NCBI GenBank assembly: GCA_016192705.1
Contig: JACPTQ010000015.1
Span: 1-64,000 of the forward strand
Length of the DNA: 64,000 bases
From: Deltaproteobacteria bacterium
GTDB taxonomy: Bacteria > Myxococcota > JACPTQ01
Direction of reading: 5' to 3'
Made by a program: the position numbers and the translations under genes. The notes beneath the pieces are model-generated. The model had not been told where the DNA came from and searched no databases. It was given only the letters and a program-made list of their open reading frames with translations. Shown piece by piece: positions 299 to 61,257 of the stretch. Positions within the stretch are counted from its first letter, which is position 1; each line of letters opens with the position of its first letter.

Positions 299-3001
299 AT
301 GGCGAAAAAATGGGTCTATTTTTTCGGCGCTGGTGAGGCGGAAGGCGGCGCATCGCAAAAGCCACTGCTCGGCTCGAAGGGCGCGGGGCTCGCCGAGATG
401 ACGCGCCTCGGCGTGCCGGTGCCGGCTGGATTCACGGTGTCGACGGAAGTTTGCGCGCACTACACGACGAACGGCCAGACTTACCCCGGCGATTTGCGCG
501 CACAGGTCGGCGAGGCGATGGCGAAGGTCGAGCGCGCGATGAATGCCAAGTTCGGCGACGCGGCGAATCCGCTCCTTGTGAGTGTGCGATCCGGCGCGAT
601 CATCTCGATGCCCGGAATGATGGACACGGTTTTGAACCTTGGGCTCAACGCAAAAACCGTTGAAGGGATGGCGAGGGCGACGCAAAATCCGCGATTCGCC
701 TGGGATTCGTATCGACGCTTTATTCAGATGTACGGCGATGTGGTGATGCGGCTCGGCAAAGAGAAGTTCGAGCACATTTTCTCGGCGCAGAAAAAGAAGC
801 GCGGCGTCGCGGCCGACACGGAACTTTCGGCCGACGACCTTCGCGAGGTCGCATCATTATATAAGGGTCTCGTACGGGACATGACGGGCACCGATTTTCC
901 AGAGGCGGTCGACGAGCAGCTCTGGGGCGCGATCGGCGCGGTGTTTCGCTCATGGAACAACGACCGTGCGGTCACCTACCGCAAGCTCAACAAGATTCCC
1001 GACGACCTCGGCACGGCCGTTTCGGTCGTCGCCATGGTTTACGGCAATATGGGGAACGATTCGGCGACCGGCGTTGCGTTCACGCGTGACCCGGCAACGG
1101 GCGAGCGGCGGTTTTTCGGCGAGTACCTTTTGAATGCGCAGGGCGAAGACGTCGTTGCGGGGATTCGCACGCCGATCGCCGTCGCGAAACTCGCGGATGC
1201 GCTGCCCGAGGCGTATCGGGCACTTGACGACACGCAAAAGAAGCTTGAGCGGCATTACCGCGACATGCAGGACATCGAGTTTACGATTCAACGCGGAAAG
1301 CTTTGGATGTTGCAGACGCGCACCGGGAAGCGGACCGGGTTCGCGGCGGTGCGAATCGCGGTCGAGATGGTCGACGAGGGGCTCATCTCGAAGGACGAAG
1401 CGCTCGCGCGGGTGCCGGCCGATACGCTTGTGCAGCTGCTCATGCCGGTGTTTGAGGGCGAGGCGAAGACGCGAGCGACGAAGGAGGGGCGGCAACTCAC
1501 GAAGGGGCTCGCGGCGGGTCCAGGCGCGGCGAACGGCAAGGCGGTTTTCTCGGCGGTCGAGGCGGAGCGACGGCACGCGGCGGGCGAGCAGGTGATTTTG
1601 GTGCGCGCGGAGACGAGCCCCGAGGATATTCGCGGGATGGCGGTCGCCGAGGCGATTGTGACGGGGCGCGGCGGGATGACGTCGCATGCGGCGGTCGTGG
1701 CGCGCGGGATGGGAAAGTGCTGCGTCGTGGGGTGCGGCGAGCTTGCGATCGACGAGGGCAAGCGGCAGTTTGCGACGGGCAAAGGAAATGCCGTTGTGCG
1801 GGAGGGCGACGCGATTTCGGTCGACGGAACGACGGGCGAAGTGTTCGCGGGCGGAATTCCAACGCATCCATCGGAAGTGATTCAGGTCGCGGTGGAAGGC
1901 AAGAAGGCGGCGAGCGATGCGCCGGCGTATCAACTTTACGCGAAGCTGATGGGTTGGGCGGACGAGGCGCGGCGACTCAAAGTGCGCGCGAACGCCGACA
2001 CGCCGCATGATGCGGAGGTCGCGCGGAAGTTGGGCGCCGAGGGGATCGGGCTTTGTCGCACGGAGCATATGTTTTTCGAGGGGACACGGATCGACGCGAT
2101 GCGCGAGCTGATTTTGTCGGACGACGAGGCGGGACAGCGGCGCGCGCTCGCAAAGCTCTTGCCGATGCAGCGCGGCGATTTCAAGGGGATTTTCGGCGCG
2201 ATGACGGGGTTGCCGGTCACGATTCGTCTCCTCGACCCGCCGCTTCATGAATTTCTGCCGCACACCGACGATGCGATCGCTGAGCTCGCGAAGGCGTCGG
2301 GAGTCCCCGTGCAAAAGATTAAAGATCGCGCCGCGGCGCTCGCCGAGTTCAATCCGATGCTCGGGCTGCGCGGATGCCGGCTCGGTCTCACGCAGCCGCT
2401 CATTTCAGAGATGCAAGTGCGCGCCATCATGGAGGCAGCCGTCACGGTCAAGCGCGACGGGCTCGAACCGATTCCAGAAATCATGATTCCGCTTGTGGGA
2501 CTCGCGACGGAGCTTGAGCGCGCGCGAACACAGGCGGTCGCGGTAGCGGAGGCGGTGCTCAAAGAGGCGAAATTGCGCGTCAACTACACCGTCGGCACGA
2601 TGATTGAGCTTCCGCGGGCATGTGTCGTAGCGGACAAAATCGCCGAGCAGGCCGATTTCTTCAGCTTCGGAACGAACGACCTCACGCAAACAACGTTTGG
2701 GCTGTCGCGCGACGACGCGGGGCGGTTCTTGCCGTGGTACGTCGACGCAAAGCTCTTGCCAGTCGACCCATTCGTGTCGATCGACCGGGCCGGCGTTGGC
2801 GGCCTTATGAAACTGGCCGCCGAGAAAGGGCGTAGCGTAAAACCAAACCTGAAGCTCGGCATCTGCGGCGAACACGGTGGCGATCCCGAGTCGGTTGAGT
2901 TTTGCCACACGCTCGGGCTCGACTATGTTTCGTGCTCGCCGTATCGTGTGCCGATTGCGCGCCTCGCCGCTGCGCGTGCGTGCGTCGCGGAGAAGAAGTA
3001 A
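299..3001 (+). CDS. ppdK: Pyruvate, phosphate dikinase
   Basis: This cytoplasmic enzyme interconverts pyruvate + ATP + Pi and PEP + AMP + PPi in glycolysis/gluconeogenesis. The product is about 900 aa, the usual PPDK length. Visible in order are the N-terminal nucleotide-binding domain, with the SVRSGA and SMPGMMDTVLNLG stretches. Next is the swivelling phosphohistidine domain with GGMTSHAAVVARGMG (catalytic His near residue 463). Last is the C-terminal PEP/pyruvate barrel, with GLCRTEHMF, FGTNDLTQ and the catalytic Cys in LGICGEHGG (near residue 856). The reading frame is open back to base 5, but the family N-terminus and a GGAGG ribosome site at 289-293 support the ATG at 299. The upstream extension would be translated repeat. 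The stop lies 6 bp before the next gene, so co-transcription is possible. Confidence 0.97.
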   Translation: MAKKWVYFFGAGEAEGGASQKPLLGSKGAGLAEMTRLGVPVPAGFTVSTEVCAHYTTNGQTYPGDLRAQVGEAMAKVERAMNAKFGDAANPLLVSVRSGAIISMPGMMDTVLNLGLNAKTVEGMARATQNPRFAWDSYRRFIQMYGDVVMRLGKEKFEHIFSAQKKKRGVAADTELSADDLREVASLYKGLVRDMTGTDFPEAVDEQLWGAIGAVFRSWNNDRAVTYRKLNKIPDDLGTAVSVVAMVYGNMGNDSATGVAFTRDPATGERRFFGEYLLNAQGEDVVAGIRTPIAVAKLADALPEAYRALDDTQKKLERHYRDMQDIEFTIQRGKLWMLQTRTGKRTGFAAVRIAVEMVDEGLISKDEALARVPADTLVQLLMPVFEGEAKTRATKEGRQLTKGLAAGPGAANGKAVFSAVEAERRHAAGEQVILVRAETSPEDIRGMAVAEAIVTGRGGMTSHAAVVARGMGKCCVVGCGELAIDEGKRQFATGKGNAVVREGDAISVDGTTGEVFAGGIPTHPSEVIQVAVEGKKAASDAPAYQLYAKLMGWADEARRLKVRANADTPHDAEVARKLGAEGIGLCRTEHMFFEGTRIDAMRELILSDDEAGQRRALAKLLPMQRGDFKGIFGAMTGLPVTIRLLDPPLHEFLPHTDDAIAELAKASGVPVQKIKDRAAALAEFNPMLGLRGCRLGLTQPLISEMQVRAIMEAAVTVKRDGLEPIPEIMIPLVGLATELERARTQAVAVAEAVLKEAKLRVNYTVGTMIELPRACVVADKIAEQADFFSFGTNDLTQTTFGLSRDDAGRFLPWYVDAKLLPVDPFVSIDRAGVGGLMKLAAEKGRSVKPNLKLGICGEHGGDPESVEFCHTLGLDYVSCSPYRVPIARLAAARACVAEKK

Positions 3002-3007
3002 GCGAAG

Positions 3008-4285
3008 ATGAAGACTGGAGAAACCACAAAGACACAGAGTTGGCGAGGCCGGAGGAGCAAAACAGCCTTTTTCTCGTCCAACCTCTGTGTACTCTGTGCC
3101 TCTGTGGTTTCTCTTTTCTTATCCTCCTGCGCGACGAACGTGGCCGGCATTGAGCCGAAAGACGGCGAAATCCGCTTCCCCGTTGGACTCGCGGTGCACC
3201 CCGGCGGCCGATACCTTTTCGTCGCGAGCTCGAATTTCGACTTGCTATACAACGGCAGCACCGTCGGCGTCGTCGACTTGACGACCAATGCGTACGTTCC
3301 CGGCCACACTGTGAAGGTCGGCTCGTTCGCGGCGGATCTCGTGGTGAACGACGCCGGTTCGACGATCTTTGTTCCCGACCGATCGAGCGCGCGCGTCAAT
3401 GTGATCGACGTCGACCTCACCGCGTCGCGCTTCCTAAGCTGCAGCGCAACGACGCCAGCCCCTGGGCTATTGCCGACCTGCGCGAGCTCAAACGCCATCG
3501 CGGTGTCCCAAGATCCGTTTAGCGTCGCGCTCCTCCCCCAAGAGTCGTTTGACGGCGGAACCGCCCCCGAGCGCCTCATCGTCTCGCACCTTCGAAACGG
3601 CGAAGTCTATGTGCTCGAAGCAGCCGACGGCGGGGCGGCGCGTTATAACGTTGTTGCAACGCAAGATTTCTCGGACGGCACGAACGCAATCGCCGTTCGC
3701 CCCGACAGTGACCCGTCTCGACGAACCGTTTACGTCAGCCATCGCTTCTCAAATTCGCTGTCGACCTTCCGCCTCATCGGCGACTTCTTGTCGCCACCCG
3801 CGCCGACGCGACTCGTGCAAACCGGAATCGTCTCCATCCGAAACCCAGCCGGCGGCCTCGACACGCGCGGAATCGCGTTCAACCCGAGCGGAACGCGCGC
3901 ATTTTTCGCCGATCGGAGCCCGTCTTCGATTGTTCGGCTCGACACGTCGCTTGACACGAACGGCTTCGAGACAAATCGCATCGTCGATGTGCTCGCGGTT
4001 GGGCTTGGGCCCGCAAGCGTCAACTACGTTGTCGGCACCGGCGGCGCGCGCGACTTGCTCTATGTCCCGTGTTTCTATTCGGACGAAGTCTGGGTGTTGG
4101 ACGCCGACCTCTTCACGGTCGCGACCGTCATTCAGGTTGGCGGCGGCCCGTACACGTTCGCGCTCGCGCCCGACAAGAAGCGCGCGTACGTGGCGAATTT
4201 CCGCGACTCAACAATCTCTGTGCTCGACCTCGACCCGACGAGCCAAACGTATCATCGGGCGATTTCCGTGATTCGCACGCCATGA
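3008..4285 (+). CDS. Beta-propeller (YVTN-type) lipoprotein
   Basis: The 425-aa product starts 6 bp after ppdK. It has a basic n-region (RGRRSK), a hydrophobic core and the lipobox LSSC, so it should be an exported lipoprotein. The mature part carries repeated propeller blades such as GLAVHPGGRYLFVASS, DLVVNDAGSTIFVPDRSS and FALAPDKKRAYVANF, typical of YVTN/lactonase-like seven-bladed propellers that act in binding or as scaffolds. The whole signal peptide is encoded by a family-1 repeat, which is unusual. The stop overlaps the start of the next gene (ATGA), implying translational coupling. The ligand is unknown. A start closer to the hydrophobic core cannot be excluded. Confidence 0.85.
   Translation: MKTGETTKTQSWRGRRSKTAFFSSNLCVLCASVVSLFLSSCATNVAGIEPKDGEIRFPVGLAVHPGGRYLFVASSNFDLLYNGSTVGVVDLTTNAYVPGHTVKVGSFAADLVVNDAGSTIFVPDRSSARVNVIDVDLTASRFLSCSATTPAPGLLPTCASSNAIAVSQDPFSVALLPQESFDGGTAPERLIVSHLRNGEVYVLEAADGGAARYNVVATQDFSDGTNAIAVRPDSDPSRRTVYVSHRFSNSLSTFRLIGDFLSPPAPTRLVQTGIVSIRNPAGGLDTRGIAFNPSGTRAFFADRSPSSIVRLDTSLDTNGFETNRIVDVLAVGLGPASVNYVVGTGGARDLLYVPCFYSDEVWVLDADLFTVATVIQVGGGPYTFALAPDKKRAYVANFRDSTISVLDLDPTSQTYHRAISVIRTP
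3021..3112 (+). repeat. Palindromic repeat element, family 1, inside a signal-peptide region
   Basis: The left arm AAACCACAAAGACACAGAG (3021-3039) is the near-perfect inverse complement of CTCTGTGCCTCTGTGGTTT (3094-3112), 17 of 19 matching. The middle is also partly self-complementary. The element forms codons 5 to 35 of the 3008 gene, and the right arm reads LCASVV in the signal-peptide core. Related right arms occur at 4305-4352, 7567-7617, 10308-10336 and 20935-20974, with a degraded copy at 57243-57292. Confidence 0.8.
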
Positions 4286-6066
4286 TGATGAAGAAAAACA
4301 GAAACCTCTCTGTGTTTCATCGCTCAGTGTTTCTCTGTGCCTCTGTGGTGCACGTCCTCTTTCTTACTTCCTGCCAAGATCCGCTCGTCATCCAAGCATC
4401 GCGAATCGACACACCCAAAGCGATTGCCGCAGCGTTTACGGACGGCGGAGTCGACGGTGACCTCTTTGTCGTGAGCGTGCAGCGCGGCGAAGTTGCCGTT
4501 ATCGACATATCCAACGCGGCGCTCGTCGATTTGGACGGCCACGTCCCGGGCCTGAGTTCGATTCAGGTTGGCCTCGGCGTCACCGATCTCGCGACAACAC
4601 CCGACGGAACGTTCGTTTACGCAGTGAACGGCGTTAAAGGCGAACTTGCCAAGATTTGCACGCGCGGCGCGACCGGCTGTACCGCACGAACGGTCACGAA
4701 GCGAATCGCACTCGGCTCGGGAATCGATCGCATCACGATGGCCGGCACACGCGCCTACATCACGCGGCCAACCGCGGGTACGGTGATTGTTTTGGACCTC
4801 ACGACCGATGCGGTGGTCACAACGATCGCGCTCGGCGGTTCGCCGCGCCATGTCGCCGTGAACGCGTCACAAACAATCGCCTACGTCACGGACAGCGCGG
4901 CAACCACGCTCGCACGTGTGACGCTCAACAGCCTCGTGGTGTCGCGCGTCGACGTGGGCGCACGAACCGGCACCATCGCGCTCACGCCTGACGACGCCTT
5001 TGTTTACGCGGTGAGCCTTGAGAAGCCGGAGATCCTCGTTGTCGCGACCGCTACCGACACGCAGGTTAACGTCAACGCGGCGGACCCGACGACAACCGAT
5101 AAGGGGATCAAGTTCTACTCGACGACGCTCGGCACCTTCGCAACGCCGTTCTCAATCGCCATGCGCGCGCTCTCGACACCTGACACCAACAGCGGCTCGT
5201 CCGTTCTCGCCTACGTTACAACGCTCGACGGTTTCGTTTACGTTGTCGCGCCCGGCGGGACAGCGCCACATGCGATTGTCGACGCCGACACCACATCAGG
5301 ACCGTCCGTGAGTGCCATCGCTTATTCGATTGCCGGAACGCTCGCTGTTGCGGGCGCCGACGCGCCGCGGCCCGCCGGGTTCGACGCGGGCACAACGGGG
5401 ATCACACTCACCTCGACGCCACGAATCTTAAAGCCCGAAACGTTCTCGTTGACCTTCGAGGGCGCGCTCGTTAGCTCGACCGTTTCTCGAAATTCGCCCC
5501 AGGCGACGATGCTCGACGGTGGCGTCCTTCTCGACGTTGGCCAGCATTTCGTTAAAGCCGGGGTCATCGTGGGAGACCACGTGACGTTTACCAGCACCGT
5601 TTCTCCCGCGTCGGGCGCCGACTGCACGGGCGTCGACGTCGATGGCAACGGGAACCGACTCGAGTGGCCCATCGCGTCCGTTGCCGCGGATCGCGTGACG
5701 TTACAGCCGACGCCGCCCACAGCCTGCTATACACAGGCGACGTCCTATGAAATTCGCGCGACCGGCTTCTGGAGCGTCGCGGGGTCGATCACAACACCGC
5801 TCGCGCGTTTGTCGGAGAATGTTCCATACGACAACAGCCTGTTTGCGCTCACCATGACGTCCGGAACGTCGCCGTCGCAGCGCGATGCGCGATGGGCGTT
5901 TTCGGTGTCAACCGGCGTCGTTCCCACCGCATTCAAACTTGGCACGCTGCTTCGCGGGATCGTCTTTGCGCCGACGCTCGCGCGGCTCTACGTCGTCGAC
6001 GAGGCTTCCCGAAGCGTCGTTGAGTTCGATGTCACCACGGGACTTGCTCTTCGGGTGTTCCGCTAA
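4282..6066 (+). CDS. Beta-propeller lipoprotein, paralogue-like partner of the preceding gene
   Basis: The product is 594 aa. The start is the first of three consecutive ATG codons and overlaps the preceding stop as ATGA. Because the frame is open further upstream, this overlap and the lipobox decide the start. The signal peptide ends in LTSC. The first two thirds holds YVTN-like blades (DLATTPDGTFVYAVNG, HVAVNASQTIAYVTDS, TIALTPDDAFVYAVS). The last third is a beta-rich region with no recognised domain (DGGVLLDVGQHFVKAGVIVG and onward). It is probably anchored on the periplasmic side or cell surface as a binding scaffold. The signal core is again repeat-derived. The next gene begins 25 bp downstream. 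Confidence 0.83.
   Translation: MMMKKNRNLSVFHRSVFLCASVVHVLFLTSCQDPLVIQASRIDTPKAIAAAFTDGGVDGDLFVVSVQRGEVAVIDISNAALVDLDGHVPGLSSIQVGLGVTDLATTPDGTFVYAVNGVKGELAKICTRGATGCTARTVTKRIALGSGIDRITMAGTRAYITRPTAGTVIVLDLTTDAVVTTIALGGSPRHVAVNASQTIAYVTDSAATTLARVTLNSLVVSRVDVGARTGTIALTPDDAFVYAVSLEKPEILVVATATDTQVNVNAADPTTTDKGIKFYSTTLGTFATPFSIAMRALSTPDTNSGSSVLAYVTTLDGFVYVVAPGGTAPHAIVDADTTSGPSVSAIAYSIAGTLAVAGADAPRPAGFDAGTTGITLTSTPRILKPETFSLTFEGALVSSTVSRNSPQATMLDGGVLLDVGQHFVKAGVIVGDHVTFTSTVSPASGADCTGVDVDGNGNRLEWPIASVAADRVTLQPTPPTACYTQATSYEIRATGFWSVAGSITTPLARLSENVPYDNSLFALTMTSGTSPSQRDARWAFSVSTGVVPTAFKLGTLLRGIVFAPTLARLYVVDEASRSVVEFDVTTGLALRVFR
4305..4352 (+). repeat. Family 1 repeat arm in signal peptide
   Basis: CTCTCTGTGTTTCATCGCTC followed by TTTCTCTGTGCCTCTGTGGT resembles the right arm at 3094-3112. 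It reads in the same frame (LCASVV) as the h-region of the 4282 gene. Confidence 0.7.
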
Positions 6067-6091
6067 ATGACGGACTCCAGGGTTCTTGCAC

Positions 6092-7339
6092 ATGCCGTAT
6101 GAGCTCACCGTCGGAATCCGCTATTTGCGCGGGCGACGCCGTTTTTTGTCGTCGGTCGTCCTCATTGCATCCGTGGGCATTGCTTTTGGCGTTGCCGCCC
6201 TTATCGATGTGCTCGGAATCACGCACGGCTTTGAACGCGTCTTTCGCGACAAAGTCCTGGGCGTAAAATCACACGCCGAAATCATGAAGCGCGGCACCGA
6301 TTTCGTTGAATACGACGAGATCGCCGCAGCCGTTCGCAAAGTTCCCGGCGTGCTGGGCGCAACGCCATACAAGCTCCGCGAGGGAATGGTCTCGGCGCCA
6401 GGCGGCATCGCCTGGGTTTCGGTCAAAGGCGTCGATCCAAAAACGGTCGGCGAGGTGCTCAACCTTCGCGAGTACCTGGCGCGCGGAAAAATTTCGGACC
6501 TCGCGACACAAGACGGCGCGGTGCCGGGCTGCCTACTCGGAACGCACCTCATGAAGAAACTCAAGGCGGACATCGGCAACGAGGTCGAGCTTTTGCTCGC
6601 GGGCGAGTCTTGGCGCGGAGGTTCGGGTGCGCCGCGGCACAAGCTCTTCCGCGTCGTTGGCGAGTTTTCGTCGGGCATGTACGAATTTGACAGCCATCTC
6701 GCAATCGTCGGGCTCCCTGAGCTCCAGGCGCTCGCGGCCGAGGGAGGCGTCGCGCAAGGGGTGGAGCTTCGCGTCGCCAACCCAATGAGCATCAAGGAAA
6801 CGACGCCGCTCATCGAAGAGGCACTCAAACCGTTTTGGGACGCGTCCAAGTTCGAGCGCCCGCTCTACACGGTTCGCGATTGGCAGGTCGCCAATTCCAA
6901 CCTCTTTCGCGCGCTGTTCATCCAGCGCATCGTTCTCACCATCATCTTGTGTTGCATCATCGTGGTCGCCGCTTGCAACATCGTCTGTACGCTGATCCTC
7001 ATCGTGCTTGAACGCCGACGCGAGATCGCGATTCTCATGACCATGGGCGCGACATCGGGCGGCGTGCTGAGGATTTTTGCCACAGAGGGACTCGGCATCG
7101 GGCTTCTTGGAACCGTCGGCGGTCTCGGCCTCGGCCTCGGGTTCCTCGTCCTGCTCAACACATTTGGATTCGGCCTCGATCCCAAAATCTATTTCGTGTC
7201 CGCGCTCCCCGTTGAAATCTCCGTCGCAGAAATCCTCTTCGTCGCGGGCGCGTCGATGCTCATCTCCCTCGGCGCGACGGTTTATCCGGCCGTCAGCGCC
7301 GCGAGCTTCCGCCCGGTGGATGGGCTTAGGGTCGACTGA
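6092..7339 (+). CDS. LolC/LolE-like ABC transporter permease (FtsX/MacB family)
   Basis: The 415-aa inner-membrane protein begins MPYELTVGIRYLRGRR, as LolC/E proteins do. A first membrane segment lies at about residues 21-43, followed by a large MacB-like periplasmic domain. Three membrane segments (about 270-405) form the FtsX domain, with the LERRREIAILMTMGATSGGVLRIF coupling-helix region split by a loop. In known Lol systems two such permeases and the ATPase LolD release lipoproteins from the inner membrane. No ATPase or chaperone gene is adjacent here. The TTG at 6086 is an alternative start two codons upstream. Its place among lipoprotein and barrel genes suggests envelope trafficking, which is inference. 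Confidence 0.88.
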   Translation: MPYELTVGIRYLRGRRRFLSSVVLIASVGIAFGVAALIDVLGITHGFERVFRDKVLGVKSHAEIMKRGTDFVEYDEIAAAVRKVPGVLGATPYKLREGMVSAPGGIAWVSVKGVDPKTVGEVLNLREYLARGKISDLATQDGAVPGCLLGTHLMKKLKADIGNEVELLLAGESWRGGSGAPRHKLFRVVGEFSSGMYEFDSHLAIVGLPELQALAAEGGVAQGVELRVANPMSIKETTPLIEEALKPFWDASKFERPLYTVRDWQVANSNLFRALFIQRIVLTIILCCIIVVAACNIVCTLILIVLERRREIAILMTMGATSGGVLRIFATEGLGIGLLGTVGGLGLGLGFLVLLNTFGFGLDPKIYFVSALPVEISVAEILFVAGASMLISLGATVYPAVSAASFRPVDGLRVD

Positions 7340-7341
7340 CG

Positions 7342-7560
7342 ATGCGCGCCCTCGCCATATCACTCGCCATATTCATCGGATTCTGGATCGTCGCCGGTGG
7401 CCTCGCAGCGGTCGTCAACGAGCTGATCCTCGCGCGCCGAAGCGTCTTCGCGGTTTACCTCCTCCTCGGGGTCGTTTTCGGCAGCCTGCCCGCCTTCCTG
7501 ACGTTCCTCGCCTACCTGCGTTCAATTCGTCAGCGTATGGGCCGCCCGAGGCTCATGTGA
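7342..7560 (+). CDS. Small two-helix membrane protein
   Basis: The 72-aa product starts 2 bp after the permease stop. Two hydrophobic segments, at about residues 4-30 and 38-60, surround a short charged turn (NELILARRS), and the tail is basic (RSIRQRMGRPR). No family was recognised. The spacing and membrane location make a partner of the permease plausible. Its stop overlaps the next start as GTGA. Confidence 0.75.
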   Translation: MRALAISLAIFIGFWIVAGGLAAVVNELILARRSVFAVYLLLGVVFGSLPAFLTFLAYLRSIRQRMGRPRLM

Positions 7561-8891
7561 AACTTTTCCTTTCGTCTCCGTGTCTTCCTCTGTGCTTCAG
7601 TGTTTCCGTGGTTTCGCCCCTCTTCTCATCCTCGCCCACCCGCGCCAGCACCGCTGACGTCTTCTCATGCGGCTCCCGTGCCGGCGGAATGTCGGGTGCT
7701 GTATCCGCCCTCGCCGACGACTTCTCCGCGGCGTTCTACAACCCCGGCGGGCTCGCCCTCGCAACGCGAACGAGTCTCTCGGCCGGTCTCTTCCTCGCCG
7801 TCTCGCAGCTGTCCGTCAACAAAACCGATCCGGACATTCGATCGGCGTTCGGCATTTGGTTTGGCGCCGCGCTCCCCATTCCACTCGGCGGCCCGCTCCG
7901 CGACCGCCTATTTGCCGGAATCGCCTATTACCACCCCGCGAAGAGCCTTCTTTACGAAATCGGTGGCGCCTACGACGACCTCTCGTTCGCGCTCTTCCAG
8001 AACCGCATCCAGCGCGACATCATTTTGCCCGCGCTCGCGTTTCGCTTCGCCGATGGCTGGGGACTCGGCGTCGGTGCGAACGCTTTCGCGGGCGCGAGTG
8101 GCGGCGGCGGCGCCATCGAGGGACCGTCACGTTCTCTCGAAGCCTCAACCGAGATCGCACTCACCACCGTTGTCGCGCCGGTCGTCGGTTTGCGCGGGCG
8201 CATCACAAGCGGATTCGACTTCAGCCTTTTCTACCGCGGCGAATTCAGCGTCCCCTTCGACATCACGATCGACAGCCGCATCGCGGATCGCGTCGTCAAA
8301 GTCCACGTTCAATCGCGCACGCTGTACACGCCGTCGGTTTGGGGAGCAGGCATCGCCGTCCGCCCATCGTCCCGCTTGCGCCTCGCGCTTGACGGAGCGT
8401 GGGAACAGTGGGGCCGCTTCTCGGGCAGCGTCGTCGTCATCGACGGCCAACTCCCAACGGTTGGCACACCACCGGTCGCCACGCTCAATCCGCCGCAATC
8501 GCTCGCGCGCTTCTTTGACATCATCACGGTTCGCGCAGGCGTCGAGTGGGATGTTTACCAGTCAACGCGTGCCGACACGCGGCTCTCCACGCGCTTTGGG
8601 CTTCGTGTCGAACCAACCCCGATCCCACCGCAACACGGCGCGACGAACCTCGCCGACGCCGACAAGCTCGGCGCGTCACTCGGCTTCGGCCTTGCGTGGG
8701 GTCCGCTTCGCATCGACCTCCACGTCGACGCCATCTGGCTCGGCACAATTCGCATCGACAAAGATCCGGCGCGCCTCATCGACGAAAGCACCGCGGCCGG
8801 CCTTCAAACAACAAACCCCGGCTACCCACAGCTTCACGCTGGTGGCTCCGTCTGGTCCGGCGGCCTTACCGTGACGGGCGTGCTGCCGTGA
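7557..8891 (+). CDS. FadL/OMPP1-like outer-membrane barrel protein, first copy
   Basis: The 444-aa product begins at a GTG overlapping the previous stop (GTGA). A signal peptide of about 36 residues, with a repeat-derived core, precedes SRAGGMSGAVSALADDFSAA and FYNPGGLAL. That pattern (small residues, then a YNPA/GGLA box) is the N-terminal signature of the FadL/TodX family of outer-membrane transporters for hydrophobic compounds. The rest is alternating beta strands ending in a hydrophobic C-terminus, and TPIPPQHG is shared with the next gene (TPVPPQRG). It is probably a long-chain fatty acid or hydrocarbon channel. The substrate is unknown. The frame is open upstream, but only the GTG places the signal peptide at the N-terminus. 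Confidence 0.85.
   Translation: MKLFLSSPCLPLCFSVSVVSPLFSSSPTRASTADVFSCGSRAGGMSGAVSALADDFSAAFYNPGGLALATRTSLSAGLFLAVSQLSVNKTDPDIRSAFGIWFGAALPIPLGGPLRDRLFAGIAYYHPAKSLLYEIGGAYDDLSFALFQNRIQRDIILPALAFRFADGWGLGVGANAFAGASGGGGAIEGPSRSLEASTEIALTTVVAPVVGLRGRITSGFDFSLFYRGEFSVPFDITIDSRIADRVVKVHVQSRTLYTPSVWGAGIAVRPSSRLRLALDGAWEQWGRFSGSVVVIDGQLPTVGTPPVATLNPPQSLARFFDIITVRAGVEWDVYQSTRADTRLSTRFGLRVEPTPIPPQHGATNLADADKLGASLGFGLAWGPLRIDLHVDAIWLGTIRIDKDPARLIDESTAAGLQTTNPGYPQLHAGGSVWSGGLTVTGVLP
7567..7617 (+). repeat. Family 1 repeat arm in signal peptide
   Basis: Diverged copy containing CCTCTGTGCTTCAGTG and TTTCCGTGGTTTCG. It encodes the hydrophobic segment PLCFSVSVVSPLFSS of the 7557 gene. Confidence 0.6.
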
Positions 8892-10282
8892 TCCGCGCCG
8901 CTGCTTCCGTATTCGAATATTTTCAACGCCAAGTCGCAAGGGCACATAAGCGCAACAAGAGACGCCTCTTCCCTTTGGGCCTTTGCGTCTTTGCGTTGCT
9001 CTCTCCCCCCGCCCACGCGAGTCTCCCCGACGCAGCCGGCTTCGGCGCCCGCGGCGTCGCACTCGCCAACGGCGGCTCCGCGGCGGCCATCGATTACACA
9101 GCGACCTTTTACAACCCGGCAGGCCTCGCGCTCTCCGAAACGACGTCACTCGGACTCGGCTACACCGCCTTCAACCCCGACGTCCGCGTCAACGGCCGCT
9201 CGCCCGACCTTAAGGCCGCGCGCGGCGCGACGTTCGGACTCGCCGTCCCCTTCGCGTTTTCAAAACCTCTTCCCGACTGGTCATTCGGCGCTGGACTCGG
9301 GCTGTTTCTCCCCGATTCACTGCTCGTTTCGGTTCGCCTCAAACCCCCATCGACGCCACGCTTCCCGGCTTTCGACCATCGCCTTCATCGCATCTGGATC
9401 ACCACCGCCCTCGCCGCATCCTACAAAAAAAGCGTCGCGCTCGGCCTCGGCACGTCGATCCTCGCCGATGTCGCTGGCACCGGCGCCGACCTCGATCTCT
9501 CTCTCGACCTCAACCAAATCGCCGACCCATCCGCGCAGCGGGCCCGCGCGCGCCTCGACGTTGACATCAAAACGCGCGTCGGTGTTGTCGCATCCGCGTG
9601 GTGGCGCGCCGCGAGCGCCTTCGACCTCGCCATCACCTATCGCGCCGCGCTCGCCATCGACAACGAATTCCGCACCTTCGCCAAGATTCAAACCGGCATC
9701 CTCAATGGCGACGTTTCGATCCTCTTCAAAGACGTCGAATACTACACACCGCACACGCTCACACTTGCGGCCGCGTGGCGGCCGACGTCATCCTTGACGC
9801 TCTTCGCCGATTTCGTCCTCTCGCTCTGGGGCCTCGCGCCAAAACCTGTTCCCGACGTCAGCCTCGCGGTCAACCTCGGCACACCCGATCCAACCGCGCC
9901 CCTCGTGCTTCAGCCCGGCGACGGTGATTACTGGAACACGATTTCGATTCGCCTCGCCGTCGAATGGACCGCTCGCTTCTCACGCACCATCACGCACACA
10001 CTGCGCGGCGGCATCGCCTACGAGCCAACGCCGGTCCCGCCGCAGCGCGGCCTTCTGACGCTCATCGACAGCGATCGTTACGCGTTCACTTTCGGCTCCG
10101 GTTTTCTATTCAGCGGTTTTTCCGAGATCTTCAAAGAGCCACTCAGCATCGACTGGGCTCTGCGCGTCGACTGGCTCACCGACCGCACCACCACCAAGGA
10201 CGACCCGACAACGCCCGTTCCACGCTTCACAGCCGGGGGTTTCATCGTCGGCGGCGCCATCACCACCACGGTGCGCTTTTGA
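8888..10282 (+). CDS. FadL/OMPP1-like outer-membrane barrel protein, second copy
   Basis: The 464-aa product starts at a GTG overlapping the previous stop (GTGA). The long basic n-region (HKRNKRR) and the core LGLCVFALL end in PPAHA, a good signal peptidase I site. The mature part begins GFGARGVALANGGSAAAIDY followed by FYNPAGLAL, the FadL-family box, and continues as an amphipathic beta barrel. It is a tandem paralogue of the 7557 product, and the pair may form different channels for the same route. Both arms of a family-2 repeat lie inside its signal-peptide coding region. The C-terminal Phe fits a barrel assembly signal. Confidence 0.85.
   Translation: MIRAAASVFEYFQRQVARAHKRNKRRLFPLGLCVFALLSPPAHASLPDAAGFGARGVALANGGSAAAIDYTATFYNPAGLALSETTSLGLGYTAFNPDVRVNGRSPDLKAARGATFGLAVPFAFSKPLPDWSFGAGLGLFLPDSLLVSVRLKPPSTPRFPAFDHRLHRIWITTALAASYKKSVALGLGTSILADVAGTGADLDLSLDLNQIADPSAQRARARLDVDIKTRVGVVASAWWRAASAFDLAITYRAALAIDNEFRTFAKIQTGILNGDVSILFKDVEYYTPHTLTLAAAWRPTSSLTLFADFVLSLWGLAPKPVPDVSLAVNLGTPDPTAPLVLQPGDGDYWNTISIRLAVEWTARFSRTITHTLRGGIAYEPTPVPPQRGLLTLIDSDRYAFTFGSGFLFSGFSEIFKEPLSIDWALRVDWLTDRTTTKDDPTTPVPRFTAGGFIVGGAITTTVRF
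8921..8999 (+). repeat. Palindromic repeat element, family 2, in signal peptide
   Basis: The left arm TTTCAACGCCAAGTCGCAAG and the right arm GGGCCTTTGCGTCTTTGCG are roughly inverse complements. The element resembles those at 58823-58893 and 60737-60812. Here it encodes the n- and h-regions of the 8888 signal peptide. Confidence 0.7.
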
Positions 10283-11688
10283 AATCCTTCTTCTCCCTCC
10301 GATCTCCCCACCTCTGTGTCTCTGTGGTTGCATTTTTCCTCTCTTCTTCTTGCTCCTCTCTCGGCGGCGACGCACCCACCACCCGCAACCTCCCCGAGCT
10401 CCCAACCCTCGCGTTCCGCACCGAGACGCTGACGATGTGCGAGGGTGCCGTCGAGCTTGCCGCCGCCGCAAACTCCGCAACCGGTGTCTGCGCCGCACCC
10501 GACGCGGGATTCGCCGCTTGTGCCGCCGATTCCGAATGTGCCGCGCGTGAGGCGTGCCGCTGCGGACGCTGTGTTCTCCCGCTCTGCTCCGAGCAAGCCG
10601 ACTGCCCACCCGGGCACACGTGCAACAAGGGCCGCTGCGACCTCACGAACGGCGTCGGCTTCGATTGTCCGTCCGGCACCGCGCTCTCAAGCGGCCTCTG
10701 CGTGCCGACATGCGCCAGCCCGGCCGATTGCCGCGTCGGCGAGGCGTGCGTGGGCGGCCTTTGCGACGTGCGGACCTGCCTCTCGGGCACTGGCTGTTCC
10801 GCAGGCGAATCGTGCCACGAGGCGCGCCGCGCGGTCTCACTCGGCTCGCCGGTCGCGCTCGTCGTCGACGGTGGCGTTCGCATCTGGTTCGAAGCCCGCG
10901 GATCGAGCGCCTCGTCAATCCGTTCCGCCACGAGCGCCGACGGACTCAAGTTCACGTCGTCCTCCAACGCGGCGCTCACTGCCACAAACGCGTGGGAAGG
11001 CACTCGCGTCGCAGCCCCAAGCGTCATCGCGGCCGACGGCGGCTTTCTCCTTTTCTACGAAGGCGGGTTAAACGCGGCCGGCATCGGCGTCAGCTGGTCG
11101 ACGTCGGGCGACACCTTCGTCTCGCAATCAACATCGGCGCCGCTCATCGCGGCCAGCGCCGCATGGGAATCGGGGCGCATCGGCGGGCCGTCTGTTGTGG
11201 CGTGGGACGGTCCCACAACGATCTACTACGAAGCCGGCCCAGCGAATGCGCGTGCCATCGGCGTCGCCACGACCAACAACGCGGGTAGTTTCGATCGCGC
11301 GGGCCCGATCCTTACCGCCACCTCGGTTTCGTCCGCTGCCGCGCGCGGCCCCGGATGGTCAAGCGTTCTCGAGGTCTACGCCCCATCCGCGATGCGACTC
11401 GGCTCGGCCGCCGCGCCCGGTGCAACGTGGCTCTGGTTTTCGGTGCGCGGCATTGAAAAAGGTGCCGCGATCATCAACGAATCGATCGGCTTCGCGGTCG
11501 CCCCCGACGGCGTTTCAGCGGTCGCGACCCCGTACAATCCCGCTTACCATCGATTCAACTCGTATTTGACCGCGATGGACGAAGGCGAGCCGAGCCTCAT
11601 CCCAGTTGGCGAAAACGGGCTTCGCCTCTACTTCACATCACGCGGTCCCAACGACGGCCTCGGTGTCGCGCGCTCGTTCGTCGAGTAA
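10279..11688 (+). CDS. Lipoprotein with Cys-rich repeats and a glycosidase-like propeller
   Basis: The 469-aa product starts at a TTG overlapping the previous stop (TTGA). The signal peptide ends LSSSC. Residues about 60-175 contain Dickkopf-like disulfide modules of the type CxxxxDCxxGxxCxxGxC (SEQADCPPGHTCNKGRC, ASPADCRVGEACVGGLC). Residues about 185-460 form repeated blades such as VRIWFEARG, FLLFYEGG and TTIYYEAG, each followed by I(G/R)xA/SxS, resembling five-bladed glycoside hydrolase-type propellers. No complete catalytic set was identified, so sugar or surface binding is as likely as hydrolysis. It is the last gene of the coupled series. A short T-run follows the stop. Confidence 0.8.
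   Translation: MKSFFSLRSPHLCVSVVAFFLSSSCSSLGGDAPTTRNLPELPTLAFRTETLTMCEGAVELAAAANSATGVCAAPDAGFAACAADSECAAREACRCGRCVLPLCSEQADCPPGHTCNKGRCDLTNGVGFDCPSGTALSSGLCVPTCASPADCRVGEACVGGLCDVRTCLSGTGCSAGESCHEARRAVSLGSPVALVVDGGVRIWFEARGSSASSIRSATSADGLKFTSSSNAALTATNAWEGTRVAAPSVIAADGGFLLFYEGGLNAAGIGVSWSTSGDTFVSQSTSAPLIAASAAWESGRIGGPSVVAWDGPTTIYYEAGPANARAIGVATTNNAGSFDRAGPILTATSVSSAAARGPGWSSVLEVYAPSAMRLGSAAAPGATWLWFSVRGIEKGAAIINESIGFAVAPDGVSAVATPYNPAYHRFNSYLTAMDEGEPSLIPVGENGLRLYFTSRGPNDGLGVARSFVE
10308..10336 (+). repeat. Family 1 repeat arm in signal peptide
   Basis: CCTCTGTGTCTCTGTGGTTG matches the right arm at 3094-3112 and reads LCVSVV in the h-region of the 10279 gene. Confidence 0.75.
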
Positions 11689-20427: not shown

Positions 20428-21426
20428 CTAACTGGTATACGAGGGCACCACAGAAAACCCGCTGACGACAGCGCCGTCGCGACCAATCGCATACGGCATT
20501 CGCGGCGTCGTGTGTGCAACACCAACGTCACCGCGCGGCGTGACAACGATGATCCCACCAACACCACCGGTGCGGTCGCGCATTCGGGCGAGCGCCTCGC
20601 GCGCCGCAGCCATCGCCGACGCTCCACCGCGAAATCGCTCAACAGCCGATCGCGTAAGCCCCGCGCGAATGATGTATTCGCCCGGCCCCGTCGCCGACGC
20701 CGCCCCAAGCTCGTTGTCGGCATACGTGCCCGCGCCCGCAATCGGCGTGTCCCCGACGCGTCCCGAGCGTTTCCCCGCGCGCCCGCCCGTCGACGTCGCC
20801 GCGGCAACATTTCCGCGCGCATCAACCGCGACCGCCCCGACTGTCCCCCCGCGCTTTTCTGCCCCCGCTCCCGCATCCTCTCCAGCGCCCGCTTCCGCCT
20901 GTTCTTTCCTAACCCCCTTTTTTTCCTCCTCCGATCTCTGTGCTCTCTGTGCCTCCGTGGTTACTCCCCTCTTCTCTTCTCTTTCCGCCGCCAACTCCCG
21001 CCGCGCGCGCTCCGTCTCAAGAGACTCTTGCGACACAACACCAACCCCGCACTCCTCCGCGAATCGCGCCGCGCCCGCCCCCACCAAGAAAACCGCTTCA
21101 TTCGCCTCGAGAACTTTCCGCGCGAGCCGCACCGCCGACGCAACCGGCGGCACCGCACCAACCGCCCCCACGCGCAACGTCGCGCCGTCCATAATCGCCG
21201 CATCAAGTTCGATTGTTCCCTCGCGCGTAAAACACGCCCCGCGCCCCGAGTTGTAGAGCGGGTCTTCTTCGAGCACTCGCACAGCCGCCTCCACCGCATC
21301 GATGGCCGCCCCGCCCGCCTCGAGCACACGCCACCCTTCGCGCGCCGAGCGCTCGCACCCCGCGCGGGCCTCCGCTTCCGCCACGTCGTCCCATCGCCCC
21401 GCTCCGCCGTGTACAACAATGACCAT
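20428..21426 (-). CDS. Isoaspartyl peptidase / plant-type L-asparaginase
   Basis: This Ntn hydrolase of 332 aa cleaves isoaspartyl dipeptides or asparagine after self-processing. It starts VIVVHGGAG, with the active-site surroundings DPLYNSGRGA and ELDAAIMDG. The autocleavage site with nucleophile GTVGAVA (Thr195) follows, then the beta-subunit motifs GRVGDTPIAGAGTYAD and ATGPGEYIIR. Directly before Thr195 sits an extra, highly charged stretch (about 148-192). It includes TTEAQRAQRSEEEKK, encoded by a family-1 repeat, in the linker that is normally lost or disordered after cleavage. The ATG at 21426 follows AAGGGAG by 8 bases. Confidence 0.92.
   Translation of the reverse strand: MVIVVHGGAGRWDDVAEAEARAGCERSAREGWRVLEAGGAAIDAVEAAVRVLEEDPLYNSGRGACFTREGTIELDAAIMDGATLRVGAVGAVPPVASAVRLARKVLEANEAVFLVGAGAARFAEECGVGVVSQESLETERARRELAAEREEKRGVTTEAQRAQRSEEEKKGVRKEQAEAGAGEDAGAGAEKRGGTVGAVAVDARGNVAAATSTGGRAGKRSGRVGDTPIAGAGTYADNELGAASATGPGEYIIRAGLTRSAVERFRGGASAMAAAREALARMRDRTGGVGGIIVVTPRGDVGVAHTTPRMPYAIGRDGAVVSGFSVVPSYTS
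20935..20974 (-). repeat. Family 1 repeat inside the isoaspartyl peptidase gene
   Basis: On the plus strand it reads CTCTGTGCTCTCTGTGCCTC then CGTGGTTACTCC. It is inverted relative to the gene's coding sense, so it encodes charged residues (TTEAQRAQRSEE) rather than a hydrophobic signal. Confidence 0.8.
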
Positions 21427-21563
21427 CGCCGCAACTCCCTTCGAAACAAAGAATGGTACCAGAAAACTCAACTCGCCATGCATCGACCTACGCACTTGCG
21501 GAATTTACCTGCGCGAGGTATGAGTGCCGGTTTCACAACTCGAGTAAAGATGGAGGAAAGACG

Positions 21564-58486: not shown

Positions 58487-59548
58487 CTATTGCACTTTGA
58501 CCGACGTCATTTTGAGGGACTCGACCTCTGCGGCCGTCCGCTCCGCAGCAAGCGCTCCCGCGGGGAATCGACGCGCCATTTCGGCGAGCACTTGGAGCGC
58601 TCGATCCGGGCGCTTCCGATGCGTCGCTTCAAGGCGCGCAAGCATCAAGAGCGCGGTTTCGGCGTCCGAGTCGCGACGGTTTGCGAGGCGCCGATATTCG
58701 GATGCCGCAGCATCGACTTCGCCCGCCGCGAGTCGCGAAAGTGCGCGAGCAAACGTCGGAGGATCGGCACGGCGCGCTGGATTCGCACGGCGCGTCTTCG
58801 TGGTTGCCGGAACTTGACGCCATGGCGTGGAGACGCCAACCGAAGTGGTCTCAGGCTTTGCGTCTTTGCGGCTTGGCGCCTCTACGTTGAAATCCCCAGC
58901 GTGAGTCGCGTCGCCCCTAACGCTTCGTCGCCAAGTCTGACCCCCCGAAACCGACACCGCCCCGCGGCCGCCATCCGTCACCCGCACGGCGCCTTCGACG
59001 ACCTTCACCTCCACGTCGTCGGCGCCGACGTGACCCACCGAAAAAACAGTTCCGACAACCTCGACTTCGACCGACCCCGCCCGAACCACGAACCGCTCAC
59101 CGGCCGCCCGCTTCGCGACTCGAAACCACGCGACGCCCCGCAAAACCTCGATCGCATTCTCACCCACAACGCGCACGCCACTTTGTGGCATCACGGTTCC
59201 GGTCGCTCTTGACGAAAAGACAACATTCACCGGCTCGTTCGACGCGCTGACCTCGCGAATGCCGCCAACGTCGGTCGCGGGTTGTGTCGCGAAAACGACA
59301 GCCACCGCAAGCGCGCACGCCGCAACCACACCGAATGCCCATCTCGGACGCACACTTGGCCAAAAAAACCTGGACGCGTCACCATCCGAGACGACCGACT
59401 GTCGCCGCGCCGCAATCGCCTGCGCGATTCGCTCCCCCATCGCGTCGGACAACTGCGCGTCTCCAGCCCTGTCGACACGCCGAAGCGCCTCGACGGCCCA
59501 CTCGGACGGCGCATCCGTCACCAGCGTCTCCCGTTGATCGACCGTCAC
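58487..59548 (-). CDS. FecR-like anti-sigma factor with a repeat-derived insert
   Basis: The 353-aa product overlaps the sigma gene as ATGA. Residues ~1-75 form the cytoplasmic anti-sigma part, and one membrane segment lies at about 75-92 (WAFGVVAACALAVAVVF). A periplasmic FecR domain follows (VRVVGENAIEVLRGVAWFRV, VEVVGTVFSV, VKVVEGAVRVTDG). Residues ~218-245 (FNVEAPSRKDAKPETTSVGV) are encoded by a family-2 repeat. The C-terminal ~100 residues are helical and TPR-like (AASEYRRLANRRDSDAETAL). It should hold the sigma factor inactive until a periplasmic signal arrives. Confidence 0.85.
   Translation of the reverse strand: MTVDQRETLVTDAPSEWAVEALRRVDRAGDAQLSDAMGERIAQAIAARRQSVVSDGDASRFFWPSVRPRWAFGVVAACALAVAVVFATQPATDVGGIREVSASNEPVNVVFSSRATGTVMPQSGVRVVGENAIEVLRGVAWFRVAKRAAGERFVVRAGSVEVEVVGTVFSVGHVGADDVEVKVVEGAVRVTDGGRGAVSVSGGQTWRRSVRGDATHAGDFNVEAPSRKDAKPETTSVGVSTPWRQVPATTKTRRANPARRADPPTFARALSRLAAGEVDAAASEYRRLANRRDSDAETALLMLARLEATHRKRPDRALQVLAEMARRFPAGALAAERTAAEVESLKMTSVKVQ
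58823..58893 (-). repeat. Family 2 repeat inside the anti-sigma gene
   Basis: GGTCTCAGGCTTTGCGTC and TTTGCGGCTTGGCGCCTC then TACGTTGAAATC, related to 60737-60812 and to 8921-8999. It reads through the gene in frame. Confidence 0.8.
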
Positions 59549-60207: not shown

Positions 60208-61257
60208 TCAAAAACTGAAATAGACCCCGGCCCCAACATCCAATTCGAACCGGCGCACCGTGACCGGCGTCCCTCCCGATCCCAAGAATTCCGCTTCGGC
60301 AAACGCGAAGTTGAACCTGACGCCCAGATCGAGACCCACAGACCCGAATCGTGGGCGCGCGCGAAGCCCCAAGCCCGCAAACGGCACCCACCGCGTGTCG
60401 GATTCGGTGAGGGAAGCATCGGCGACGCTCGCCATCAACAACTTCACAGCCAATGTGGCGTCCAGCCTCAACCCCCAGCGATCCTTCGGGCCAAATGGGC
60501 GAAAACCCGCGGTCGCTCCCGAACGAAAATCCGAAATCGAAACAGAAACCGGTGCGATGTGCGCCCGTCGTCTCCATCCGAAATGAGGCTCCAATATGAA
60601 CTGGTCGGTGAGCGCGCGTGCCGCAAACACGTCAATCCCAACTTGCGTTATCTCCGCGGAAATCGACGTCGCGGCTGAAACGCCGACCCACCTGCGCGCG
60701 GGTGCGTGTGCGGATGCGGAAGCGGGAATTTGACGCAAAGGCGCCGAGGCGCCAAGGGAAGAGGTCTCACTCCTTGCGTCTTTGCTCCTTTGCGCCTTGG
60801 CGTTGAAATCTTCTGCGGGCGCGGTTGCGGGGGCGGGTGCGGTTGCGGGGGCGGGTGCGGGAGCGGGAGCGGTTGCGGGTGCGGTTGCGGACGCAGCCTT
60901 TCGTGCGATTCGTTCAACCACGAGCGCAAGCCGCAACGATTCGGCATCGCACGCGTCGCGGCCGTTCGAAACCGCACGAACCACGCGAATGGCGCCACCC
61001 GCCGCGACCCGAATGTTCCACGTGCGCTCCCCAGCGGCGAGTTCGACGATGACCCGCTGAACGCCGGGGCAGTTGGTCGTTACGCGAATCCCAAGCGAAC
61101 CGAGAACACGCGCCACGCGAGCGAAGTTCGCGCACGACTTTTTGCCCAAGAATCGAAGTTCGACCGCCAGCGCCGCGTCACTGCCGCTTGGGCACGGAAC
61201 CACGTCACCGAATGCCGCCACAACGGTCAATACGTTCATCAACATTGTTCGGCTCAC
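60208..61257 (-). CDS. Secreted or membrane protein with Pro-Ala linker and barrel-like C-terminus
   Basis: The 349-aa product has a weakly hydrophobic N-terminus (MLMNVLTVVAAFGDVVP). A small alpha/beta region (~20-120) follows, with CANFARVARVLGSLGIRV and CPGVQRVIVEL and two possible disulfide cysteines. An AP/AT-repeat linker (~120-147) and the family-2 repeat peptide (~148-175, FNAKAQRSKDARSETSSLGA) come next. The last ~175 residues look like an outer-membrane barrel ending in a terminal Phe (VGAGVYFSF). Its position before the sigma gene suggests a signal-sensing or regulated envelope role (inference). Confidence 0.7.
   Translation of the reverse strand: MSRTMLMNVLTVVAAFGDVVPCPSGSDAALAVELRFLGKKSCANFARVARVLGSLGIRVTTNCPGVQRVIVELAAGERTWNIRVAAGGAIRVVRAVSNGRDACDAESLRLALVVERIARKAASATAPATAPAPAPAPATAPAPATAPAEDFNAKAQRSKDARSETSSLGASAPLRQIPASASAHAPARRWVGVSAATSISAEITQVGIDVFAARALTDQFILEPHFGWRRRAHIAPVSVSISDFRSGATAGFRPFGPKDRWGLRLDATLAVKLLMASVADASLTESDTRWVPFAGLGLRARPRFGSVGLDLGVRFNFAFAEAEFLGSGGTPVTVRRFELDVGAGVYFSF
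60737..60812 (-). repeat. Family 2 repeat inside a coding region
   Basis: The left arm AGGCGCCGAGGCGCCAAGG and the right arm TTTGCGCCTTGGCGTTGAAA are imperfectly inverted around GGTCTCACTCCTTGCGTC. It reads in the same frame as the copy in the anti-sigma gene. Confidence 0.85.
60817..60898 (-). repeat. GC-rich minisatellite encoding an Ala-Pro linker
   Basis: Tandem GCGGGTGCGGTTGCGGGGG-type 6- and 12-base units encode alternating Ala-Pro and Ala-Thr. It lies directly next to the family-2 repeat. Confidence 0.85.

Follow-up and report, generated by a model that had tools for sequence, protein, structure and literature searches.

Two dispersed palindromic repeat families have probably entered genes in frame in a bacterium of the Myxococcota, where the strand appears to set signal-peptide or linker use

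The closest precedents for the repeats described here are the palindromic elements of Rickettsia and one predicted case in Yersinia. In the portion of the literature drawn on here, Rickettsia palindromic elements (RPE; Ogata 2000, 2002; reviewed in PMC10969869) are characterized as short, palindromic and dispersed sequences, many of which lie in frame, and their host genes are unrelated and often housekeeping protein genes (PMC10969869). Among the enterobacterial RU/ERIC repeat units with open reading frames, one predicted Yersinia case concerns a putative exported protein (Delihas 2007, PMC2759123). Palindromic amphipathic repeat coding elements (PARCELs) are dyad-symmetric coding DNA that has spread horizontally and has been linked to membrane-targeted proteins (PMC2996958), and REP sequences with RAYT transposases (GTAG/CGTC families) constitute high-copy, dispersed short palindromes (PMC3733652).

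We analysed a stretch of 64,000 nucleotides (the window; contig JACPTQ010000015.1 of assembly GCA_016192705.1, Deltaproteobacteria bacterium) together with the genome to which it belongs. The data point with a probability of roughly 0.85 to a scenario in which two dispersed repeat families, CTCTGTG and CTTTGCG, entered genes in frame and in which the strand sets whether a copy is used as signal peptide or as linker. In their full form, the repeats of both families are palindromes of about 75-110 bp. Similar to RPE, the full copies are short and palindromic (3010-3118 and 8915-8998, fold z of -5.6 and -4.8), with the half copies lacking a significant fold, and in-frame copies are present in unrelated genes (DnaE, CarB, asparaginase, ProRS, Der, UvrA and others). 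This likeness refers to behaviour only. Unlike RPE, two unrelated repeat families are involved here, their use depends on the strand, one of them is also found in many other phyla, and the host appears to lie outside the Rickettsiales. The sampled relatives of the same phylum have largely 5-13 Mb genomes, unlike Rickettsiales, so membership in this order looks excluded. The RU/ERIC units offer a single predicted case, whereas the genome studied here contains about 28 such genes, among them the sole BamA gene with a full score, and both an orientation rule and a lipobox control are at hand. In PARCELs, domains of 25 residues are arranged in tandem within the mature protein, whereas the present repeats are single dispersed leaders or linkers. 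Unlike REP/RAYT systems, most of the sampled copies are intragenic or located at gene starts, and no Y1 transposase (TnpA_REP/RAYT, IS200 type) was detected in the source genome with the PF01797 profile, which was positive in 5 of 14 control genomes. The GTAG or CGTC tag at the palindrome foot is absent from the arm consensus. Terminal inverted repeats, as in MITEs, are represented by the paired arms of the full copies, and we infer that the repeats spread by a trans-acting activity. When the exact arm and the CTTTGCG sequences were searched in the part of the literature covered here, two matches were obtained, both of them unrelated. New aspects of the present system are its scale, the strand rule, the lipobox control, the replaced leader of a core protein (BamA) and a second family that mainly forms linkers. 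Core exported proteins would have drawn their targeting signals, on a genome scale, from dispersed repeat DNA, and a second lineage with massive entry of palindromic repeats into coding sequence would become available. The strand rule (hydrophobic signal versus hydrophilic linker) is simple, physical and directly testable, and it provides a concrete system for the question of how signal peptides evolve fast despite conserved mature proteins.

A first-pass annotation of the window had reported that the signal-peptide regions of five genes of one operon, which start at 3008, 4282, 7557, 8888 and 10279, are built from dispersed repeats. We re-located these repeats and confirmed all of their positions. 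The CTCTGTG family is present in four of the leaders (3008, 4282, 7557, 10279) and the CTTTGCG family in one (8888), and all five copies are in frame and lie within the first ~35 codons of their ORFs; these positions and frames are direct observations. The first gene (3008-4285, + strand) encodes a Lactonase-type propeller lipoprotein (ORF, Pfam Lactonase, lipobox cysteine of the homologues) with the leader MKTGETTKTQSWRGRRSKTAFFSSNLCVLCASVVSLFLSSC, the leader segment of the product being MKTGETTKTQSWRGR. This leader contains a full CTCTGTG palindrome (3010-3118, + strand; DNA fold z = -5.6; profile matches on both strands with E 5e-10 and 7e-9). As described before, both palindrome arms lie within the gene: the left arm (3023-3039, - strand, one mismatch) encodes the charged n-region and the right arm (3092-3108, + strand, exact) the hydrophobic core. 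In its middle, the palindrome is rich in purines and resembles a Shine-Dalgarno sequence (e.g. GGAGGAG at about 3055), and start codons are close by. The second gene (4282-6066, + strand; ORF, Pfam Lactonase) also encodes a Lactonase-type propeller lipoprotein with the leader MMMKKNRNLSVFHRSVFLCASVVHVLFLTSC and carries a CTCTGTG half element at 4308-4368 (+ strand; profile match E 0.005; exact arm 4333-4349).

A FadL/OmpP1-type outer membrane protein with the leader VKLFLSSPCLPLCFSVSVVSPLFSSSPTRASTA is encoded at 7557-8891 (+ strand; Pfam Toluene_X E 3e-8). Its leader includes a diverged CTCTGTG half element of the subfamily CTCTGTGTCTTCCTCTGTG at 7571-7612 (+ strand; 7575-7612 in the arm search), which was matched at E 1.1e-4 by a subfamily profile built without this copy; the reversed sequence gave no match below E = 0.1. 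The neighbouring FadL/OmpP1-type gene (8888-10282, + strand; Pfam Toluene_X E 3e-14; leader MIRAAASVFEYFQRQVARAHKRNKRRLFPLGLCVFALLSPPAHA) is a paralogue of the 7557 gene (30% identity). Its leader had correctly been assigned to a separate repeat family. This family is CTTTGCG, of which the leader carries an exact copy at 8981-8995 and a full palindrome at 8923-8998 (+ strand; 8915-8998 in the fold test, DNA fold z = -4.8; family profile on both strands with E 2e-7 and 1e-6). The fifth gene (10279-11688, + strand; ORF and leader sequence) encodes a lipoprotein with the leader LKSFFSLRSPHLCVSVVAFFLSSSC; its TTG start overlaps the upstream stop, and a CTCTGTG half element extends over 10272-10347 (+ strand; profile match E 1.5e-10; exact arm 10312-10328). 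The description of the leader repeats as palindromes holds for 3008 and 8888, where the whole palindrome is present, but not for 4282, 7557 and 10279, which carry one half and for which the DNA fold test indicated no significant fold. An Rfam search of the region 2900-10600 yielded no match. The statement that the mature proteins differ in fold was not correct, since 3008 and 4282 both encode Lactonase propellers and 7557 and 8888 are FadL/Toluene_X paralogues. The conclusion that common descent is not the source of the shared leaders stands, because these paralogues bear leaders from different repeat families. For the same reason fold similarity is ruled out as cause of the shared leaders, and the leaders must have been acquired independently of the mature proteins.

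In the complete 5.21 Mb genome (88 contigs), we counted 41 exact CTCTGTG arms and about 92 arms with at most one mismatch, and the arm pattern read backwards gave no exact match in the same 5.21 Mb. Similarly, the CTCTGTG profile yielded 114 matches with E<0.01 in 1.6 Mb and none in the reversed sequence. This excess over the controls indicates that the repeats are not due to chance. The 1.6 Mb consisted of tiles picked around repeat copies, so that the intragenic fractions hold for this sample, and the copies recovered by the profiles had themselves served to build them. Genes were called with a simple codon-usage caller and signal peptides were assigned by eye and by motif. When the copies were classified against these gene calls, 31 N-terminal sense fusions of the CTCTGTG element were found. 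The genome-wide arm search proposed in the first-pass annotation therefore bore out that the repeats encode signal peptides at gene starts, mostly in one frame. In about 28 signal peptides the hydrophobic core is formed by the element; this number equals the 31 fusions minus two or three doubtful ones (L068 without signal, L083 as cytosolic HemW, and L071:13178-13735, where the GspD gene is duplicated in truncated form). The frame had been described as always the same, which is true for the four CTCTGTG genes of the window but not genome-wide, where f0 was used 21 times, f1 eight times and f2 twice; the constant frame of the window is thus not a rule. Half elements are mostly read in f0 and full palindromes mostly in f1.

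Nearly all of the 31 sense fusions continue into a lipobox or an A-x-A-type site, so that the parts of a leader (charged n-region, hydrophobic core, lipobox or AxA site) are present, cleavage being predicted only. A lipobox followed the arm in the gene frame in 16 of 31 fusions and in the two other frames in 3 of 62 cases (P 4e-7); for other arms, the corresponding number was 13 of 252. This enrichment was observed directly, and judged from such sequence features the repeat leaders are presumably translated and exported. The fused proteins are members of families that are exported anyway, including Omp85/BamA, ZnuA, FadL, GspD secretin, 5'-nucleotidase, M16 peptidase and multihaem cytochrome as well as PilO/PilP-like proteins, BatD and DsbD. 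Codon position 2 was least diverged in the N-terminal f0 copies (0.23 vs 0.36 and 0.32) and not so elsewhere, which is suggestive only because neither sites nor copies are independent. In the HemW-like gene (L083:6649-7905, - strand), the likely GTG start is located inside the repeat arm, and thus the element may also supply start codons.

The two strands of the element differ strongly in the peptides they encode. When the consensus was translated, mean hydropathy lay between +1.1 and +2.1 for the sense frames and between -2.7 and -3.1 for the antisense frames (three frames each). The sense (pyrimidine-rich, CTCTGTG) frames are hydrophobic (LCVSVV, SVSLW, LCLCG) and the antisense (purine-rich) frames hydrophilic and charged (TTETQR, NHRDTE, PQRHR). 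This opposition follows from the genetic code, since pyrimidine-rich codons with a central T specify hydrophobic residues and their complements hydrophilic ones, and it accounts for sense copies at N-termini and antisense copies at internal or C-terminal sites. Here, we found a sense:antisense ratio of 23:15 for half elements at N-termini and of 1:38 for internal plus C-terminal ones (P = 1e-8), and for most of the antisense "N-terminal" copies a plausible start is located downstream. The orientation bias is a direct observation, and selection is its probable cause. The antisense half elements encode linkers of the ETTETQRSEGEEKGG..GAGAG type, which occupy loops or interdomain positions in DnaE (where the finger domain starts), CarB (oligomerisation region, where the copy takes the place of sequence found in E. 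coli), asparaginase, ProRS (directly before the editing domain) and Der (between the two GTPase domains). The asparaginase case is part of the window: the asparaginase/isoaspartyl peptidase gene (20428-21483, - strand) carries an antisense CTCTGTG half element at 20902-20978 (+ strand; profile E 8e-6). The resulting linker directly precedes the autocleavage threonine segment GTVGAVAVD, and when the protein is aligned with its PDB homologue 4pvp, residues 180 and 209 of the query fall on neighbouring positions of the latter.

For the CTTTGCG family, 43 of 57 loci were intragenic. A single hydrophilic frame (AEDFNAKAQRSKDARNETSSLGVSAPLRQIPAPAP) is read in about 28 of the intragenic copies, a second frame (KRKDAETPREE..SRLGVLALN) is used by about a dozen, and gene 8888 reads the third one, in which the right arm is hydrophobic. 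Within the window, the family search detected a copy at 58856-58878 (+ strand) in a FecR-domain gene (58487-59548, - strand) and a palindrome at 60732-60802 (+ strand) in the gene 60208-61245 (- strand), where it encodes the peptide APAEDFNAKAQRSKDARSETSSLGASAPLRQIP. Linker use by the opposite strand and by most copies of this second family is the larger pattern, which had been missed before. Elsewhere in the genome, a UvrA-like protein of 1836 aa (L061:7750-13257, - strand), which is about twice the usual length, contains linkers of both repeat families at about residues 520 and 930. In the gene for the large subunit of glutamate synthase (L064:5837-10579, - strand), the central domain has a CTTTGCG palindrome on either side, the first separating it from GATase_2 and the second following it. 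GC-rich arrays (GCGGGTGCGGGAGC type, GAGAGA or APAPAP tracts) adjoin many linker copies at loci with antisense CTCTGTG elements, e.g. at L045:15021 and L046:10576, and these arrays may belong to a larger composite element.

The scenario that we favour would start with copies of CTCTGTG and CTTTGCG entering genes in frame and being retained where the encoded peptide is harmless or useful. A sense half element placed directly after the native start codon would serve as hydrophobic core of a Sec signal peptide, and the lipobox or AxA site behind it would be the one native to the gene. The entire signal could be supplied by a full palindrome, with the left arm as charged n-region and the right arm as hydrophobic core; since it reads charged-then-hydrophobic in both orientations, it would always have the polarity of a signal peptide. 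Inside proteins, an antisense half element or a hydrophilic CTTTGCG frame would give rise to a soluble linker or tail, and at gene starts the repeat would have replaced pre-existing signal peptides. Selection may suffice for this sorting if hydrophobic inserts persist at exported N-termini and hydrophilic ones in loops and linkers. A further-reaching version regards the palindrome, with the Shine-Dalgarno-like stretch and start codons of its middle part, as a self-contained portable export module, whose function would be explained by its symmetry and the genetic code and which, spread by a trans-acting activity, could repeatedly overwrite the signals of core proteins, BamA included; we consider this version tentative and rather doubtful.

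Homologues without the repeat allowed a comparison, as had been suggested in the first-pass annotation. The 3008 homologues of the same phylum (24-36% identity, at least 20 genomes) have kept the lipobox cysteine at the aligned position and their leaders are unrelated. In several genomes the 4282 homologue adjoins the 3008 homologue, and in at least two a lipoprotein leader is readable. Direct inspection of the same-phylum homologues of 3008, 4282 and BamA indicated that they lack the repeat and mostly carry ordinary signal peptides, i.e. these relatives are mostly exported by unrelated leaders. From this comparison of sequences the repeat is judged to have displaced an earlier signal in the three cases accessible to comparison. 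Among the relatives, none with an empty site was close enough to show the insertion event. For BamA, a single match above the cutoff (TIGR03303) was found in the genome at C80:12232-14502. Its leader MKKRRVTTETQSMGGWKRKSLTLFSSVLCGSVTLWFLLFFSPLARA consists of two palindrome arms joined to the mature protein, the leader segment being MKKRRVTTETQSMGG. None of the 29 BamA leaders of the same phylum matched the repeat, and most of them look like ordinary signal peptides. Since BamA is essential in well-studied Gram-negative bacteria, the repeat-made leader is, by analogy, very probably functional.

These comparisons also bear on other explanations. The repeats might be intergenic elements in 5' untranslated regions, through which the ORFs happen to extend, with the true starts located downstream. 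Such an arrangement would be consistent with a repeat that is almost without stops in all six frames, with several antisense copies upstream of genes that have a good native start downstream, and with the many apparent N-terminal fusions in other phyla that look alike. However, downstream starts would leave the sense fusions without a signal peptide, yet their families are exported (BamA, GspD), and the lipobox follows the arm in the gene frame only. For 3008 and 4282, downstream starts, which the first-pass annotation had named as an argument against its proposal, are rejected because the homologues, which are lipoproteins, have their lipobox cysteine at the corresponding site, and for BamA they are rejected because this protein must be exported. 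We therefore consider untranslated repeats very improbable. Recombination among signal-peptide genes would turn the repeat into a copied signal peptide rather than an independent element, and both the similar leaders of unrelated genes and the half elements that often start directly after the start codon and stop directly before the lipobox would fit with it. The same element, however, occurs in reverse orientation within soluble proteins and as a palindrome between genes, it is also palindromic across many phyla, and different frames yield different peptides, which makes leader swapping very improbable.

The proposal that insertions create or replace export signals is supported for replacement (3008, 4282, BamA) but not for creation. 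In its stronger form, proteins formerly not exported would have gained export by insertion, and candidates for such a history could be the family of 10279 and some of the fused genes that lack a characterised homologue. The homologues that were found (3008, 4282, BamA) mostly bear ordinary export signals, which argues against it; such a gain of export is very improbable, and the idea of a path towards new secreted proteins finds no support. In-frame entry with replacement of existing signals remains the reading that we prefer.

Outside the source genome, the distribution of the arm and its use in genes diverge. Among 195 genomes of the phylum searched, more than nine exact arms were present in the source genome only, and three others contained 9, 2 and 1. 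The arm is common across distant phyla, with at least 28 named genomes carrying 3 to 553 copies. Inspection of 80 loci from many phyla (102 arms) revealed no antisense internal copies, and an N-terminal fusion in sense direction was apparent in 13 cases, of which many have a downstream start and few a convincing leader. This sample argues against genes making general use of the arm in all genomes that have it, and because it contains no comparable coding use, the entry into genes looks special to the present lineage. The repeat itself is widespread; its large-scale entry into coding sequence seems to be specific to this lineage. The highest number of exact CTCTGTG arms among the matches listed (553) was counted in a genome of the Acidobacteriota (G158, via L161), where many of them are arranged as closely spaced palindrome pairs.
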